Shown piece after piece: positions 8,655 through 63,587 of a stretch of DNA of 64,000 nt (within the stretch, counting starts at the first letter, position 1; every line of letters begins with the position of its first letter). The translations under genes were made by a program, and so were the position numbers. Location of the stretch: positions 1 to 64,000 of the forward strand of contig CAKTJX010000008.1 of assembly GCA_934569045.1 (NCBI GenBank), in the 5' to 3' direction. Origin of the DNA: an uncultured Oscillospiraceae bacterium. GTDB lineage: Bacteria > Bacillota > Clostridia > Oscillospirales > Oscillospiraceae. The notes under the pieces are model-generated. The model did not search any database and was not told the DNA's origin. It saw only the letters and a program-made list of their open reading frames with translations.

Positions 8655-8745
8655 TCCTCATCTTTCGTCTGCCGCCGGATTTGGCACCTTGATTATCAGG
8701 TTGCCGGGTTTCATTGGGCCGTTCCCTCCACCACTCTTGATAAGG
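8655..8745 (-). ncRNA. SAM-I (S-box) riboswitch
   Basis: On the minus strand all the conserved blocks occur in order: CTTATCAAGAG, GGAGGGA, CGGCCC, ATGAAACCCGGCAACC, AAGGTGCCAAATCC and GATGAG. It precedes metK, the commonest S-box target. With the downstream terminator it should lower metK transcription when AdoMet is abundant. Confidence 0.97.
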
Positions 8746-8766
8746 CTTTGTATGCAGTTTTTCCAT

Positions 8767-22354: not shown

Positions 22355-23503
22355 ATGGAACAGGAATTTGAAAATTTGGAAGCCGTCCCCAGCCTGACCC
22401 TGGAGCCGGAGCTGGAAGAGAAGCCGGAGCTGGCCGTGAAGGAAGAAACCGCCCCCGTACAGGAGGCCATCCCCCAGCCGGTGCTCACCGAGCAGGAGCA
22501 GAAGATGGTGACGGACTTTGCCGCGAAAATTGATCTGGAGAACACCGCCCAGATTCTCCAGTACGGCGCTGCCGCCCAGAAAAAAATGGCGGACTTCTCC
22601 GATGCCGCCCTGGCCAATGTCCGCACCCAGGACTTAGGCGAGGTGGGCGACCTGATCGTAAATGTGGTTGGAGAGCTGAAGGACTTTGGACAGGAGGAGC
22701 AGAAGGGCTTTCTGGGCTTCTTCAAGAAGCAGAGCGACAAGCTGGAGCTGATGAAGAGCCGCTATGCCAAAGCCGAGGTCAACGTGGAGAAAATCAGCAG
22801 TGCTCTGGAGCAGCACCAGGTGCGGCTGCTGAAGGACTCCGCCGTGCTGGATAAGATGTATGAGCAGAACCTTGCCTACTTCAAAGAGCTGACCATGTAT
22901 ATTCTGGCCGGCAAGCAGAAGCTCCAGGAGGTTCGGGATGGGAAGCTGAAGGAGCTGGAGCAGACCGCCCAGCGCACCGGTCTGGCGGAGGATGCCCAGG
23001 CCGCCCGGGATCTGGCAGAAAAGTGCAACCGGTTTGAAAAGAAGCTCTACGACCTGGAGCTGACCCGGACCATCTCCATCCAGACGGCGCCCCAGATTCG
23101 CATGATCCAGAACAACGACAATGTGATGGTGGAGAAAATCCAGACCACATTGGTCAATACTATCCCCCTGTGGAAAAACCAGATGGTTCTGGCCCTGGGT
23201 ATCGCCCACTCCACGGAGGCTGCTCAGGCCCAGCGGCAGGTCAATGATGTGACCAATGCCCTGCTGAAATCCAACGCCGAAAAGTTGCACATGGCCTCTG
23301 TAGAGACCGCCAAGGAGGCGGAGCGGGGCATTGTGGATATGGAGACCCTGAAGAAGACCAATGCCGACCTGATCCAGACCCTGGACGATGTGATGAAGAT
23401 TCAGGCCGACGGACGGGCCCAGCGGCAGGCCGCCGAGGTGGAAATGGCAAAGATGGAGCAGGACCTGAAGAATAAGCTGCTGCAAATTCGTAACGGAAAG
23501 TAA
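22355..23503 (+). CDS. telA: TelA family toxic-anion resistance protein
   Basis: 382 residues, almost entirely helical and soluble, with an acidic, proline-rich N-terminal tail of about 45 residues. The wording LGEVGDLIVNVVGELKDFGQEE at about 90-110 and the long coiled-coil regions match the TelA/KlaA family linked to tellurite and other envelope stresses. It is co-transcribed with the XpaC-like gene (12-base gap, AAAGGAG before the ATG). The mRNA ends in a chain of GAAATC-spaced hairpins and a terminator that begins three bases after the stop codon. Confidence 0.9.
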   Translation: MEQEFENLEAVPSLTLEPELEEKPELAVKEETAPVQEAIPQPVLTEQEQKMVTDFAAKIDLENTAQILQYGAAAQKKMADFSDAALANVRTQDLGEVGDLIVNVVGELKDFGQEEQKGFLGFFKKQSDKLELMKSRYAKAEVNVEKISSALEQHQVRLLKDSAVLDKMYEQNLAYFKELTMYILAGKQKLQEVRDGKLKELEQTAQRTGLAEDAQAARDLAEKCNRFEKKLYDLELTRTISIQTAPQIRMIQNNDNVMVEKIQTTLVNTIPLWKNQMVLALGIAHSTEAAQAQRQVNDVTNALLKSNAEKLHMASVETAKEAERGIVDMETLKKTNADLIQTLDDVMKIQADGRAQRQAAEVEMAKMEQDLKNKLLQIRNGK

Positions 23504-23505
23504 AT

Positions 23506-23701
23506 TTTGGGGGCTGTTGCATCTGTGCGGCAGCCCCCAAATGAAATCCGGCCTGCGGCCGGGTGAAATCCGCCTTGCGGCAGGTGAAATCCGGTCGGTG
23601 ACCGGATGAAATCGCCCGGTTCGGGCGGTTGTGGTGTCCCTTCGGGACGATTGAAAATGAAAAGGGGTGCGTTGCGGTTCATGCGCAGCGCACCCCTTTT
23701 T
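23506..23701 (+). repeat. GAAATC hairpin-chain element, copy A (3' end of telA mRNA)
   Basis: Seven hairpins in a row: 23506-23516/23531-23541 (11 bp), 23548-23553/23557-23562, 23570-23573/23577-23580, 23591-23596/23600-23605, 23613-23618/23622-23627, GTCCC-TTC-GGGAC (23636-23648), and a 13 bp terminator stem 23664-23676/23684-23696 followed by TTTTTTT. GAAATC precedes hairpins two to five. No reading frame is supported. The last hairpin probably also terminates the convergent gene. Confidence 0.85.
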
Positions 23702-25378
23702 TTAGTTCTCTGCGGTTCCGGTCAGGAGCTTTTGCAGAAGCATCAGGTCTGACAGGTTTATTTGGCCGTCGCCGTTCAGGTCGGCGTTGCCGGTTTCCAC
23801 CAGCACATTCTGGCCTGCCAGGTACCGGCGCAGCCGCAGCAGGTCTGCCGCAGTGACCCGTCCGTCGCCGTTGATGTCGCCGGGGATGCCCACGGTCACC
23901 TGGACAGAACCGGCATGGCAGGTAACCTCTAAGAGCTCTGCCTGGTCATTGACGCCGGAAACCTCCGTCAGGGCCACGGGGATTTCCCCCTGGGGGGCCT
24001 GCTGGGAAATGCGGAACAGGAGCGTCAGGATGGCCCCGTTTTCCTCCGTCTGGTCCGGCTGAATCCAGAGGGCCTTCTCCCCTTCCCCCAGCCCAACCGT
24101 CCAGTCTCCCTGGGCGAAAGCCTCATTGGGGCAGTCGAAGTCCTCCAGGGTCAGCAGGCTGCTGTCATAATCGATCTGGAAATTCAGACCGCAGAGGCCG
24201 GGATTGTTCGCCAGGGTCACGGTCACCTTCACCGTCTGCCCAGGCTGGGCGGATTCGCTGCTCACCGTCAAAATAGGCAGGAGCTTCTGCACCGGCTCGG
24301 TTTCCGCAGTCTCCGGCTGTGTCTCGTCCGCGGCCGCTGTTTCCTCGGTCTGGGGCTCCGTGGTGTCCGCAGTCTTGGTGGGCACCGTCTCCTCTGTCCG
24401 CGATTCTGTCGTCTCTTCGGTCTGGGGAGCCGACGCATCCGGCGCTTCCTCCGTGGCCGCAGTCTCTTCCGCGGGTTCCGTCTCCGCCGTATCCAGAGCT
24501 GTGAAGTCCAGGCCCTTGGCCTCGGCAAAGCTTTCCGCTGCCGTGCCGGAGTAGCCCAGAATTTCCGGGGCGGCATCCAGGGCGTTTTCATCCACCGTCT
24601 CGATGCTCGCCGGGAAGGTCACCGACACCAGCTTGCGGCATAGGCTGAAGGCCCCGGCATCCACCGCCGTGACGCCCTCCTCCAGGGTCACATCCGTAAT
24701 GTCTCCCCGGAGAGAATCCCATGGATAGTAGCGTTCCCCCTCTTTCAGGGCAACGTCCCCCTTGCCGGAGACAGTCAGCTCGCCGCCGGACAGGGTCCAG
24801 GTGCCTCCCGCCCAGGTGCCTTCCTGGGATGCCAGCTTGTGCAGGTCCACCTGGCGGAAGGTTCCGCCGTTTGCCTGTATGTAATCCTGCACGCCGGTGC
24901 CCGCCGTGCCGTTGATCAGGGTCTTGTCGCCAAAGGCGCCGTCCCCCACCCAGGCAACGCTGCCGGGCAGGAACACCGTGCTCAGCTGGGTGCATCCGGC
25001 GAAGGCGTTCTGCCCGATTCCGATCAGCCCTTCCGGGTAGGTAACCCAGCACAGGGCGGTGCAGTTTTCAAAGGCGCTGTCATGGATATAACGAAGGCTC
25101 TTGGGCAAGGTAACGGATTTCAGGGCGGTGCAGTCCTTTAAGGCCTCCGCCTGGATGGCGGTAATTCCCTCGTCTACCCGCAGGGCCGTAATCTCCTCCT
25201 TGGAATTCTCCCAGGGCAGCGGCGTGGAAAAATCCATTTCCCCCTGGCCGGAAATGCAGAGCACCCCCTCCTCCAGGGACCAGCTCTGCTCCGGCGGCTC
25301 GGCCCAGGTTGGCACAGCCAGCAGAAACAGCGCCGCCAGGCACAGTGCCGCGGACAGAATCCATCTACAGCTTCTCAT
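23702..25378 (-). CDS. Secreted leucine-rich-repeat protein with cohesin and dockerin domains
   Basis: 558 residues. A signal peptide (1-26, ending VPTWA) is followed by BspA-type leucine-rich repeats (about 75-165 and 228-295, e.g. TLPKSLRYIHDSAFENC). Next is a Thr/Glu-rich linker (about 297-365). A cohesin-like domain (about 368-495) shows VSSESAQPGQTVKVTVTL, NNPGLCGLNFQIDYD and LLTLEDFD. A C-terminal dockerin (about 500-555) has two calcium loops, GDINGDGRVTAADLL and ADLNGDGQINLSDLM. Carrying both a cohesin and a dockerin makes it an adaptor-scaffoldin candidate. There is no sorting signal. The gene begins 28 bases after ftsH and is probably co-transcribed with it. Confidence 0.88.
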   Translation of the reverse strand: MRSCRWILSAALCLAALFLLAVPTWAEPPEQSWSLEEGVLCISGQGEMDFSTPLPWENSKEEITALRVDEGITAIQAEALKDCTALKSVTLPKSLRYIHDSAFENCTALCWVTYPEGLIGIGQNAFAGCTQLSTVFLPGSVAWVGDGAFGDKTLINGTAGTGVQDYIQANGGTFRQVDLHKLASQEGTWAGGTWTLSGGELTVSGKGDVALKEGERYYPWDSLRGDITDVTLEEGVTAVDAGAFSLCRKLVSVTFPASIETVDENALDAAPEILGYSGTAAESFAEAKGLDFTALDTAETEPAEETAATEEAPDASAPQTEETTESRTEETVPTKTADTTEPQTEETAAADETQPETAETEPVQKLLPILTVSSESAQPGQTVKVTVTLANNPGLCGLNFQIDYDSSLLTLEDFDCPNEAFAQGDWTVGLGEGEKALWIQPDQTEENGAILTLLFRISQQAPQGEIPVALTEVSGVNDQAELLEVTCHAGSVQVTVGIPGDINGDGRVTAADLLRLRRYLAGQNVLVETGNADLNGDGQINLSDLMLLQKLLTGTAEN

Positions 25379-30427: not shown

Positions 30428-30614
30428 GCAGCTGCTCGGCAGCTGCGGTGAAATCCAGCCGTTGGCTGGGTGAAATCGGTCTGGCGACCGATGAAATCCG
30501 ATCTGTGACCGGACGAAATCACCCTTGCGGGTGGATATGGTGTCCCTTCGGGACGAATAAACAAGCGGAAAAGAGAGGGCGTGTTGCAGCCTTTGCAACA
30601 CACCCTCTCTTTTT
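30428..30614 (+). repeat. GAAATC hairpin-chain element, copy B
   Basis: It begins one base after the stop codon of the P-type ATPase-like gene. Hairpins: GCAGCTG/CAGCTGC (30428-30446), CCAGCC/GGCTGG (30455-30469), CGGTC/GACCG (30477-30490), CCGATC/GACCGG with one mismatch (30498-30512), CACCC/GGGTG (30520-30533), GTCCC-TTC-GGGAC (30542-30554), and a 15-base terminator stem (30573-30587 with 30595-30609, one mismatch) with TTTTT. GAAATC separates hairpins one to five. Stem sequences differ from copy A while pairing is kept. Confidence 0.85.
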
Positions 30615-30639: not shown

Positions 30640-30691
30640 CCCGTAGGGGCGGCTACCATGTTGCTCTTGACATAATAGCCGCCCCTACGGG
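30640..30691. repeat. 16-bp perfect inverted repeat (REP/MITE-like)
   Basis: CCCGTAGGGGCGGCTA (30640-30655) and its exact reverse complement (30676-30691) around a 20-base loop. No T-run follows on either side, so it is not an obvious terminator. It looks like a small dispersed palindrome, but no second copy is in this window. Confidence 0.7.
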
Positions 30692-49740: not shown

Positions 49741-50070
49741 ACTGTCAAAAAATCCCTACGGGCTTTTCCGACAAACTTTTGCAGTCTGCTGCGCGCACGC
49801 CCTACGGGGGCACTGCTCCGCGCTAAGAGCCGCCTACGGCGGTTGCGCTCTGCACAGTGCTGCGGCGCTAGACTTGCAGCCTGATAGGTATTTTCTGTCA
49901 GGTACACGCCCCGACAGAAAATGATTTTACTTTATTTGCCGACTTCCGTCGGCAAACTCTGCTGGGCTTCCTTGCAAGTGATTTATGGCTGGGCGGATGT
50001 GGTGTCCCTGAGGGACGATTTTAAAAATGAGCGGAGCGCTACGTTTGGGCAGCGCTCCGCTTTGCTTGTC
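49741..50070 (+). repeat. Composite hairpin region, variant copy E of the dispersed element
   Basis: No gene. The last 85 bases match the tail of the GAAATC element: GGATGTGGT, GTCCC-TGA-GGGAC (50004-50016), an A-rich spacer and a terminator stem 50030-50040/50051-50061. Upstream the GAAATC chain is replaced by other hairpins: CCC-TAC-GGG near 49755, CCGCC-TAC-GGCGG nested in AGAGC/GCTCT (about 49826-49851), TTTTCTGTC/GACAGAAAA (49891-49921) and TTTGCCGAC/GTCGGCAAA (49935-49956). The whole looks like two palindromic repeat types joined together. The last stem also ends copZ on the other strand. Confidence 0.7.
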
Positions 50071-54893: not shown

Positions 54894-54896
54894 ACT

Positions 54897-55085
54897 TTTG
54901 GGTCTGCCGCAAAAGCGCGGCAGGCCCAACGAAATCCGACCGATGGCCGGGTGAAATCTGTCTGGCGACAGGAGAAATCCGGTTTCAACCGGACGAAATC
55001 GCCCCTGCCGGGCGGTTGTAGTGTCCCTGCGGGACGAACTGGAAAAGAGCGCGCTGCGGTTTTTTCAGACTGCAGCGCGCTTTTG
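54897..55085 (+). repeat. GAAATC hairpin-chain element, copy C
   Basis: It begins four bases after the stop codon of the Cys-rich gene. Hairpins: a 13 bp first stem (54898-54910 with 54917-54929, one T-G), CCGACC/GGCCGG (mismatched), CTGTC/GACAG, CCGGTT/AACCGG, CGCCC/GGGCG, GTCCC-TGC-GGGAC (55023-55035), and the terminator stem 55049-55057/55072-55080 with TTTT. GAAATC stands before hairpins two to five, and GGTTGTAGT before the GTCCC hairpin, as in the other copies. Confidence 0.85.
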
Positions 55086-57507: not shown

Positions 57508-57697
57508 AAAAACAGCGAGTGCGTTGCAAACCAATCGCAACGCACTCAATTTTTATTCGTCCCGCAGGGACACCGCAACCGCCCCAACAGGGCGATTTCA
57601 CCCGATCGAAGACCGGATTTCATCTGTCAAAGACAGATTCCACCCAGCCCCGGCTGGATTTCACCTGGGGCTGCCATTGCGGCAGCCCCAGATTTCA
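57508..57697 (-). repeat. GAAATC hairpin-chain element, copy D
   Basis: On the minus strand it starts inside the stop codon of the CGGC-domain gene: that TGA is the TGA of the first TGAAATC. Hairpins follow: GGGGCTGCC/GGCAGCCCC type, CAGCC/GGCTG, TGTC/GACA, CGGTC/GATCG, GCCC/GGGGC, GTCCC-TGC-GGGAC, and the terminator stem (57537-57547 with 57517-57527) with TTTTT. One spacer reads GGAATC. It also serves as the convergent end of the pseudouridine synthase gene. Confidence 0.85.
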
Positions 57698-63338: not shown

Positions 63339-63399
63339 CTTACAGACAATACCTTATCCTATTGGTGTAAGCTCGGTCCCCCACCGGAACGTCAGACAC

Positions 63400-63575
63400 T
63401 TCCAACGGCAGGTCTCCTGGCTTCGGTTCCACGCACTTCGTCCCCTTCTCGGCAGAGCCAATGGGCTATTGACGAAGCGCTCCCCATCACAGTAGAGCGG
63501 GCTGCGGCAGATTCACACTGCCTTCCCTTTTAAACCCTCCGAACTTTCTCGGAAGGTACCGGTGGATGCAAATAT
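63400..63575 (-). ncRNA. Cobalamin (B12) riboswitch
   Basis: Minus-strand blocks occur in order: AAAAGGGAAGGCAGTGTGAATC, then GCAGCCCGC-x4-ACTGT, AGCCCATTGG, GAGAAGGGGACGAAG and the B12 box GAAGCCAGGAGACCTGCC (63408-63425). It starts about ten bases after the promoter's predicted start site and ends before the terminator. Cobalamin binding should switch the downstream importer operon off. Confidence 0.97.
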
Positions 63576-63587
63576 CCAATTGCCCTG

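Follow-up and report, generated by a model that had tools for sequence, protein, structure and literature searches.

Gut-1 hairpin arrays behind stop codons in an Oscillospiraceae genome: probable mobile elements of a class genetically tied to the IVP protein family

Background

REP elements and REPINs are dispersed extragenic palindromes that carry a short fixed motif at the stem foot and occur singly or in inverted pairs. In type III toxin-antitoxin loci, a ToxN-type RNase is found next to identical RNA repeats.

The Gut-1 motif was defined by Weinberg et al. in 2010, when its role was unknown; in the accessible part of that paper (PMC2864571) it is rated “Y” (a certain RNA), not cis-regulatory, and “Human gut only”. 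Rfam holds it as RF01706 in the class “Gene; sRNA”. Our search of the open-licence literature on Gut-1 yielded at most that paper. The rRNA intervening sequences are described as horizontally acquired, and the available text of PMC4990558 quotes an old hypothesis that their ORF served mobility, while leaving the intervening-sequence protein (IVP) without an agreed function. According to the part of PMC10053308 at hand, the family of this protein (PF05635) resembles the DGR protein Avd.

We report on four hairpin arrays found in a stretch of 64,000 nucleotides from an uncultured Oscillospiraceae bacterium (hereafter, the window). We believe that they are probably non-autonomous mobile DNA elements of the Gut-1 family, within a larger class of hairpin arrays genetically tied to IVP. 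The core of these elements is an existing Rfam family; in the open-licence PMC literature searched, we found no mention of their mobile nature or of the wider linker class, and nothing that connects Gut-1 or hairpin arrays with IVP.

Results

Anatomy of the copies in the window

An earlier note, made from the letters of this DNA alone, had listed four copies with their coordinates and strands, and both a re-reading of the sequence and the matches to RF01706 bear this out (Table 1). The architecture that it described is seen in all four: a first hairpin, four units of linker and palindrome, a GGNTRTGGT-like stretch (with the variants GGTTGTAGT in copy 3 and GGTTGCGGT in copy 4), a GTCCC-GGGAC hairpin, an A-rich spacer and a terminator-like hairpin. 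The spacer, given as GAAATC, is indeed of this type, but the linkers are not uniform (CGAAATC, AGAAATC and one GGAATC). Besides the four, there is a fifth, partial copy.

The author of the note knew of no described family with this spacer. Since Rfam already contains RF01706, the claim of a new family falls: all four copies are Gut-1 (E from 6e-10 to 6e-6), each of them matching the 77-nt model end to end. Two copies score above the curated cut-off of 50 and two slightly under it (E < 1e-5).

Table 1. Parts of the Gut-1 copies in the window
Feature	Position	Strand	Basis and remarks
Copy 1, first hairpin	23504..23541	+	sequence, fold; directly 3' of the TelA-like gene stop 23501-23503
Copy 1, hairpin array (Gut-1 core)	23539..23617	+	RF01706, 62.3 bits, E 5.6e-10
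Copy 1, conserved tail GGTTGTGGT and GTCCC-GGGAC hairpin	23627..23650	+	homologous tail in G001 and G002 elements
Copy 1, terminator-like hairpin	23659..23701	+	scan
Copy 2, first hairpin	30428..30445	+	sequence; stop codon 30424-30426
Copy 2, Gut-1 array	30446..30524	+	RF01706, 46.2 bits (under the gathering score of 50), E 6.4e-6
Copy 2, conserved tail with GTCCC hairpin	30533..30556	+	sequence
Copy 2, terminator-like hairpin	30571..30614	+	by eye
Copy 3, first hairpin	54896..54929	+	sequence; stop codon 54891-54893
Copy 3, Gut-1 array	54927..55004	+	RF01706, 47.6 bits (under the gathering score of 50), E 2.9e-6
Copy 3, conserved tail with GTCCC hairpin	55014..55037	+	sequence
Copy 3, terminator-like hairpin, short T run	55042..55085	+	by eye
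Copy 4, first hairpin	57666..57691	-	sequence; CGGC-domain gene stop 57695-57697
Copy 4, Gut-1 array	57590..57666	-	RF01706, 60.5 bits, E 1.6e-9
Copy 4, conserved tail with GTCCC hairpin	57557..57580	-	sequence
Copy 4, terminator-like hairpin	57508..57548	-	by eye
Fifth copy, 5'-truncated: tail hairpin and terminator, no linkers	49991..50064	+	

The hairpins that the note had called intrinsic terminators have a GC-rich stem and a T run. In copy 1 this was found by scan (two sites in 401 bases; mean 0.9 in shuffles), and in copies 2-4 by reading the sequence, the T run of copy 3 being short. We presume that these terminators work. The observation that the copies start right after stop codons is true for the four in the window; it is, however, no rule, and in the related genome G002 solo array modules lie 28 to 236 nt away (from a mechanically called ORF stop to the first linker, for modules where such a stop was found).

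The position directly after stop codons, in the orientation of the gene and with a terminator-like end, speaks for a cis-acting structured 3'-UTR RNA, i.e., a hairpin chain that would shield or process the mRNA preceding it, or give rise to a stable small RNA. So do the very stable fold of copy 1, the only window copy folded alone (-119.5 kcal/mol; z -9.5 against shuffles), and the rating of the motif as RNA in the accessible part of the paper by Weinberg et al. (PMC2864571). We regard this explanation as the main rival of the mobile-element reading, albeit an unlikely one. The genes upstream of the four copies encode TelA, a CGGC-domain protein and two proteins with no Pfam match; they have no apparent common function, which argues against a 3'-UTR RNA.

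Several other features of the window can be mentioned. The gene at 23702-25378 (-) is convergent with copy 1 and encodes a protein with leucine-rich repeats, cohesin and a dockerin type I domain; its stop codon directly adjoins the copy 1 terminator. Shortly 3' of copy 2, at 30640-30691, lies a palindromic repeat (CCCGTAGGGGCGGC...GCCGCCCCTACGGG), and similar repeats occur 3' of array elements in G002 and of one TelA ortholog. Another dispersed structured repeat, GGTATTTTC..CAGGTACACGCCC..GAAAATG followed by a TTTGCCG hairpin, occupies 49887-49962 next to the truncated fifth copy; in relatives this type is found at gene ends (loci L115, L120, L163 and L165). Two riboswitches score over the Rfam cut-offs, SAM at 8655-8746 (-) and cobalamin at 63390-63578 (-).

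Occurrence and forms in other genomes

RF01706 is matched at E<=1e-6 in 146 of the 394 genomes of one order; at most 11 candidates were scored per genome, so the per-genome numbers are lower bounds. The matches also include the assembled MAG of Ca. Faecivivens stercoravium (G001). With 150 candidates scored in each, G001 gave 87 matches and G002 gave 33 at E<=1e-3, the two arms of a dyad (see below) counting as two matches. Arrays number up to tens per genome. None of the 14 control genomes had a match in the scans of the 394 genomes and of 18 relatives, and in the scan of G001 and G002 (E<=1e-3) one of the 14, E. coli, gave a weak match under the cut-off.

The Mfd protein of the window falls near a genus sampled with 41 genomes, the best match there being 83% (G412). 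Among 18 genomes of this genus, 12 have an RF01706 match at E<=1e-4 (range 0 to 30), and arrays with three exact GAAATC linkers are present in 3 of the 41. Dispersed extragenic palindromes, which are a feature of REP/RAYT systems, are found both in the window and in its relatives.

An array unit consists of a constant linker of ~7 nt and a short palindrome. The window form is not the only one: in dyads, a forward array faces a reverse array around a core. In G001 the linkers of an element switch in concert, on one arm as on the other, GTGAAAT being replaced by TGATAT. The tail known from the window is met again in G001, where it is part of dyads, and in G002, where the element is of the same solo type as in the window. 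A further solo form of G002 has the first hairpin and four units in common with it and a different tail. The loci of the 29 best-scoring genomes of the 394-genome scan (one qualifying array being enough for a locus to be counted) contain a dyad according to our detector in 22 cases, and in 17 an array lies at most 130 nt behind a same-strand tRNA gene, many kinds of tRNA being involved. Among 30 loci of relatives, an array is found within 130 nt behind a tRNA gene in 11 of the 26 that have an array. This abundance of copies 3' of tRNA genes is a further point against a 3'-UTR RNA.

Orthologous sites and flanks

No array was found within 330 nt from the stop codon at 40 orthologous gene ends (9 of TelA, 14 of a 688-aa protein and 17 of a 356-aa protein), which represent three of the four host genes, those of copies 1-3; the linkers searched for were GAAAT, GATATC, TGATAT and ATTTC. 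The orthologs come from 9 of 15, 14 of 15 and 17 of 17 genomes searched, respectively. Two of the stretches (in L112 and L174) are shorter than 330 nt, the matches to the 356-aa protein are interrupted or partial in four (L158, L159, L165 and L172), and L160 has overlapping TGATAT matches and no array. At the orthologous sites of G412, which has no Gut-1 match, plain hairpins are seen by eye. G002 does have the full window form although it is more distant, its 356-aa protein being 42% identical, versus 78% in G412. Since no relative at the 40 sites was seen with the window form except the distant G002, it is mostly carriers and non-carriers that are compared, which is a point against the mobile-element reading. 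A conserved 3'-UTR element was rejected on account of this absence at the sites of the three host genes.

Six genomes share a 240-nt dyad with 85-97% identity, while the sequences around it (200 nt on the upstream side and 150 nt on the downstream side) are no more alike than expected at random (medians 31% and 33%); six of the 29 loci were usable here, the other 23 having no element of the searched form or not enough flank. The absence of arrays at the orthologous sites and the near-identical elements between unrelated flanks fit mobile elements, and they support the suggestion of the earlier note that this is a dispersed family with REP-like mobility. No clean target-site duplication was found; CTTTTGGG stands at both ends of copy 3 only, by eye. 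A phage or plasmid origin was considered and rejected: copy 1 had no match, and the element pattern is absent from viral_contigs.

Pairing of the stems

The note had taken the paired changes as covariation, and had named a function at the RNA level as one of two possibilities. The palindromes are indeed maintained: in an alignment of 18 modules (4 from the window and 14 from G002), for 15 of the 33 predicted pairs, one or more sequences differ on both sides and still pair, which is in favour of a 3'-UTR RNA. Selection on RNA, however, tolerates G-U on the transcribed strand, so that GT would be expected to outnumber AC where pairing is imperfect. No such excess is seen in the array stems. They total 7 GT : 13 AC, with 4:6 in solo arrays (65 of 71 units folded) and, in 37 tRNA-linked dyads, 1:3 in the forward arms (55 of 97) and 2:4 in the reverse arms (74 of 81); the units not folded by the rule are 6 of 71, 42 of 97 and 7 of 81, the other mismatches number 3, 4 and 30, and coding repeats were kept in these sets. 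The array stems of the alignment give 5 GT : 5 AC. The control stems from the fetched loci differ in this respect, with 34 GT : 3 AC in 125 tRNA acceptor stems and 90:49 in 430 terminator-like hairpins. The numbers in this test are small, and the stem rule favours perfect pairs in arrays and terminators alike.

The pairs at the stem feet of the alignment, which involve constant linker bases, are often T-G (47 GT : 3 AC), and the first hairpin has 6:3. Both are points for the RNA explanation; the stem-foot pairs were left out of the strand test because the linker hardly varies.

The two-sided changes are real, and their interpretation as an RNA-level function is weakened by the array stems and by the 40 orthologous ends. 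Quasi-palindrome correction during DNA synthesis, or recognition of hairpins in single-stranded DNA, would keep such stems. In our reading, the varying stems are kept as DNA-type palindromes, and an RNA role of the whole is also possible. Taken together, the absence at orthologous sites and the missing G-U excess make a mobile DNA element the likelier explanation, ahead of a 3'-UTR RNA that is conserved.

The companion gene

A small ORF beside the arrays was first noticed in three loci (L133, L134 and L138). An HMM made from one such ORF finds it in 17 of 174 loci, at 14 places, 12 of which are directly beside an array; in L041 and L063, the ORF is a few hundred bases from the array. The window has no match to this HMM, such ORFs being found at array loci elsewhere. 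All nine companion ORFs tested belong to PF05635 (23S_rRNA_IVP) and to TIGR02436 (“four helix bundle protein”), and the only PDB sequence match is chain A of 2rld (2rld_A), an uncharacterized protein. We know of no catalytic activity of IVP.

Gut-1 and IVP occur together in 122 of the 394 genomes, Gut-1 alone in 24 (of the 146 with Gut-1, these show no IVP at E<=1e-8), IVP alone in 47, and neither in 201; the odds ratio is 22 if kinship is ignored. Since the 174 loci were mostly fetched for holding arrays, it is the reciprocal test, starting from the IVP genes, that carries the weight. A hairpin array lies at most 330 nt upstream of 54 of the 129 distinct IVP domains and of 8 of the 209 other ORF starts in the same loci. 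The proportions are 40/129 and 7/209 when no linkers are named, and a stricter array detector gives 23 of 92 IVP and 1 of 186 control windows. There are 77 IVP domains with no array among the 143. The IVP sample (L175-L304) is not random: 30 of its loci were picked automatically and the other 100 more or less by rank, some being passed over, among the matches listed, and one genome (G095) was known beforehand to adjoin a Gut-1 match.

A same-strand tRNA gene is present at most 600 nt upstream of 30 of the 92 IVP genes, and in 18 of these 30 the nearest one is 267-286 nt before the IVP domain (hand count). In 7 of the 12 loci whose flanks were read, the order is a tRNA gene or a preceding dyad, a terminator or T run, the forward array, the reverse array and IVP. 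The window form, with its GTCCC tail and terminator, stands beside an IVP gene in none of the four window copies and none of five G002 copies.

Other observations concern the surroundings of the IVP genes. In 50 of 66 array-linked cases, an ORF of at least 40 aa starts at most 120 nt from the IVP end, often with a 4-nt overlap of the ATGA type (loci L056, L195, L224, L228, L229, L232, L251, L260, L270 and L295 among others). Ten such ORFs were scanned, giving nucleotidyltransferase (two), Exo_endo_phos, histidine phosphatase, MazG, GNAT, methyltransferase and three with no Pfam match; similar ones are seen by eye beside different IVP types in different genomes, as would be the case for exchangeable cargo. 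Four IVP loci with no arrays were read (L188, L205, L210 and L200), and short inverted tandem repeats are present there on both sides of the gene. A tRNA-Leu gene lies 33-68 nt downstream of the IVP gene in 10 loci, of which L205 and L210 were read. In L227, a hairpin chain with GGCTAAATC linkers is upstream of the IVP gene and its inverse downstream, so that the arrays bracket the gene.

Linker type and IVP clade

The linker type of an array tracks the clade of its IVP. In a FastTree phylogeny of 143 IVP domains (109 columns, with 67 of 140 forks open), the proteins linked to GTGAAAT (9) and TGAAATC (4) arrays are in one clade (14 rows, support 99), those with ATGATG (14) and GTGATG (5) in another (21 rows, support 98), 12 of the 14 with TGATAT in a third (20 rows, support 95), and 13 with GTGAAG in a fourth (24 rows, support 89). 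The six linker classes of 59 array-linked IVPs require 6 changes on the tree, the minimum being 5; neither the 77 IVPs with no array nor the 7 whose linkers are rare enter this count, and labels obtained de novo were grouped by eye (AAATC and TTTCA into TGAAATC, CTTCA into GTGAAG, AATAT and GATAT into TGATAT).

In three genomes (G155, G316 and G166), IVPs from two or three clades occur side by side, every clade with a linker of its own, although in G166 one of the three carries the merged CTTCA label and the genome has no exact GTGAAG array. With several clades in one genome, kinship of the hosts alone is no explanation for the match of linker and clade. Linked inheritance would also produce it, as for any tightly linked pair, so the match is no proof of binding.

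Solo arrays match the IVP type of their own genome only moderately. GTGAAG solo arrays are found in 11 of 19 genomes with that IVP type and in 9 of 41 others (p 0.009 at >=2 matches and 0.09 at >=3), and arrays of the ATGATG clade in 14 of 19 and 14 of 41 (p 0.006); with strict labels the latter become 12 of 12 and 16 of 48, a set chosen after the tree had been seen. Typing is incomplete in these comparisons, as the IVP clades come from the fetched loci only, and coding repeats were kept.

The tie to IVP also bears on a second rival, which we consider improbable: a non-autonomous element of the REP or IS200/IS605 type, moved by an unlinked Y1 (RAYT-like) transposase that reads the hairpins and a 5' guide motif, IVP being a hitch-hiker. 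Short palindromes that each carry a fixed motif on the 5' side, solo copies at scattered sites and arrays in inverted pairs would all agree with it, as would the array stems with no G-U excess. Plain hitch-hiking, on the other hand, predicts neither the linkage of arrays to IVP genes nor a linker class that follows the IVP clade.

Discussion

We presume that the mobile elements operate as follows. An element strings together several units, in each of which a constant linker of about 7 nt precedes a short palindrome. The likely autonomous forms would combine an IVP gene with two arrays, one forward and one reverse, and would often lie 3' of a tRNA gene and the terminator of the latter, while solo forms would retain the array modules only and spread in trans. 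IVP presumably binds the linkers or the hairpins, as single-stranded DNA or RNA, and would be needed for movement; the host of the window presumably has or had such an IVP. The solo form in the window lies 3' of the stop codons of four unrelated genes, and its own 3' hairpin could terminate transcription. The possession of terminators may explain why copies right after stop codons are tolerated. A counterpoint is that a candidate movement enzyme is absent from this proposal, the role of IVP being a predicted one.

It is tempting to go further, although the following is rather less certain and should be taken as a tentative possibility. Gut-1 may be a subtype of a new class of mobile elements in Oscillospirales, in which an Avd/IVP protein reads the linker of its own array (the code being GTGAAAT, GTGAAG, ATGATG/GTGATG and TGATAT) and directs insertion of the array and IVP behind tRNA genes and terminators. 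A cargo gene, exchangeable and joined through an ATGA overlap, would often be included; solo arrays would move in trans, possibly via single-stranded DNA or reverse transcription.

The least probable of the rivals is a module for regulation or sequestration, reminiscent of type III toxin-antitoxin loci, where IVP would bind arrays upstream of its own gene and elsewhere as operators or sponges rather than mobile DNA: the near-constant distance at which arrays precede IVP in the tRNA-bearing loci agrees with it, but the many solo arrays with no IVP, the near-identical elements between unrelated flanks and the reverse reading of the array adjoining the IVP gene do not.

Two orphans, Gut-1 with its unknown role and IVP, are joined here into one question that can be addressed with binding and mobility assays. 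Our data also suggest that the covariation seen among paralogous palindromes can arise at the level of the DNA. The comparison of GT with AC, which separates the array stems from those of tRNAs and terminators, could be applied to other orphan Rfam motifs.

Comparison with known systems

The 23S rRNA intervening sequences with an S23p/IVP ORF, as far as they are described in the available text of PMC4990558, are alike in being small selfish elements with an ORF of the IVP family and with terminal inverted repeats that form a long stem; arrays that face each other are seen in the 22 best-match loci noted above, and the window form has one array only. Our elements differ in that many short palindromes are lined up in them, in that they lie 3' of tRNA genes or of gene ends, and in having solo copies with no ORF. 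The window copies are kept out of the rRNA group because they lie 3' of protein genes rather than in a 23S rRNA helix (the window has no match to an rRNA family) and contain no IVP ORF. We class the elements as probable selfish elements of the intervening-sequence type and not as members of the rRNA group. The mobile-element reading agrees with the old hypothesis, quoted in that text (PMC4990558), that the ORF of intervening sequences served mobility.

With REP elements and REPINs our arrays share dispersal, extragenic location and a short fixed motif, singly or in inverted pairs; they differ in being chains of three to five different palindromes with a common linker, and their linked companion is IVP. 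Unlike in type III toxin-antitoxin loci, the companion ORFs tested are PF05635 in every case, and the units differ in stem sequence. The likeness to the DGR accessory protein Avd is that of the IVP family, as stated in the part of PMC10053308 at hand.

The Gut-1 family itself is modelled in Rfam as an sRNA gene of three hairpins and the next linker, whereas these 77 nt are here one part of longer elements that also have a first hairpin, tail and terminator, or a facing reverse array. Its stems in the arrays, unlike those of an RNA, have no excess of G-U. The accessible part of the original description (PMC2864571) has “Human gut only”; in our data the family is widespread in one order, mobile-looking and, in part of the genomes, linked to IVP.
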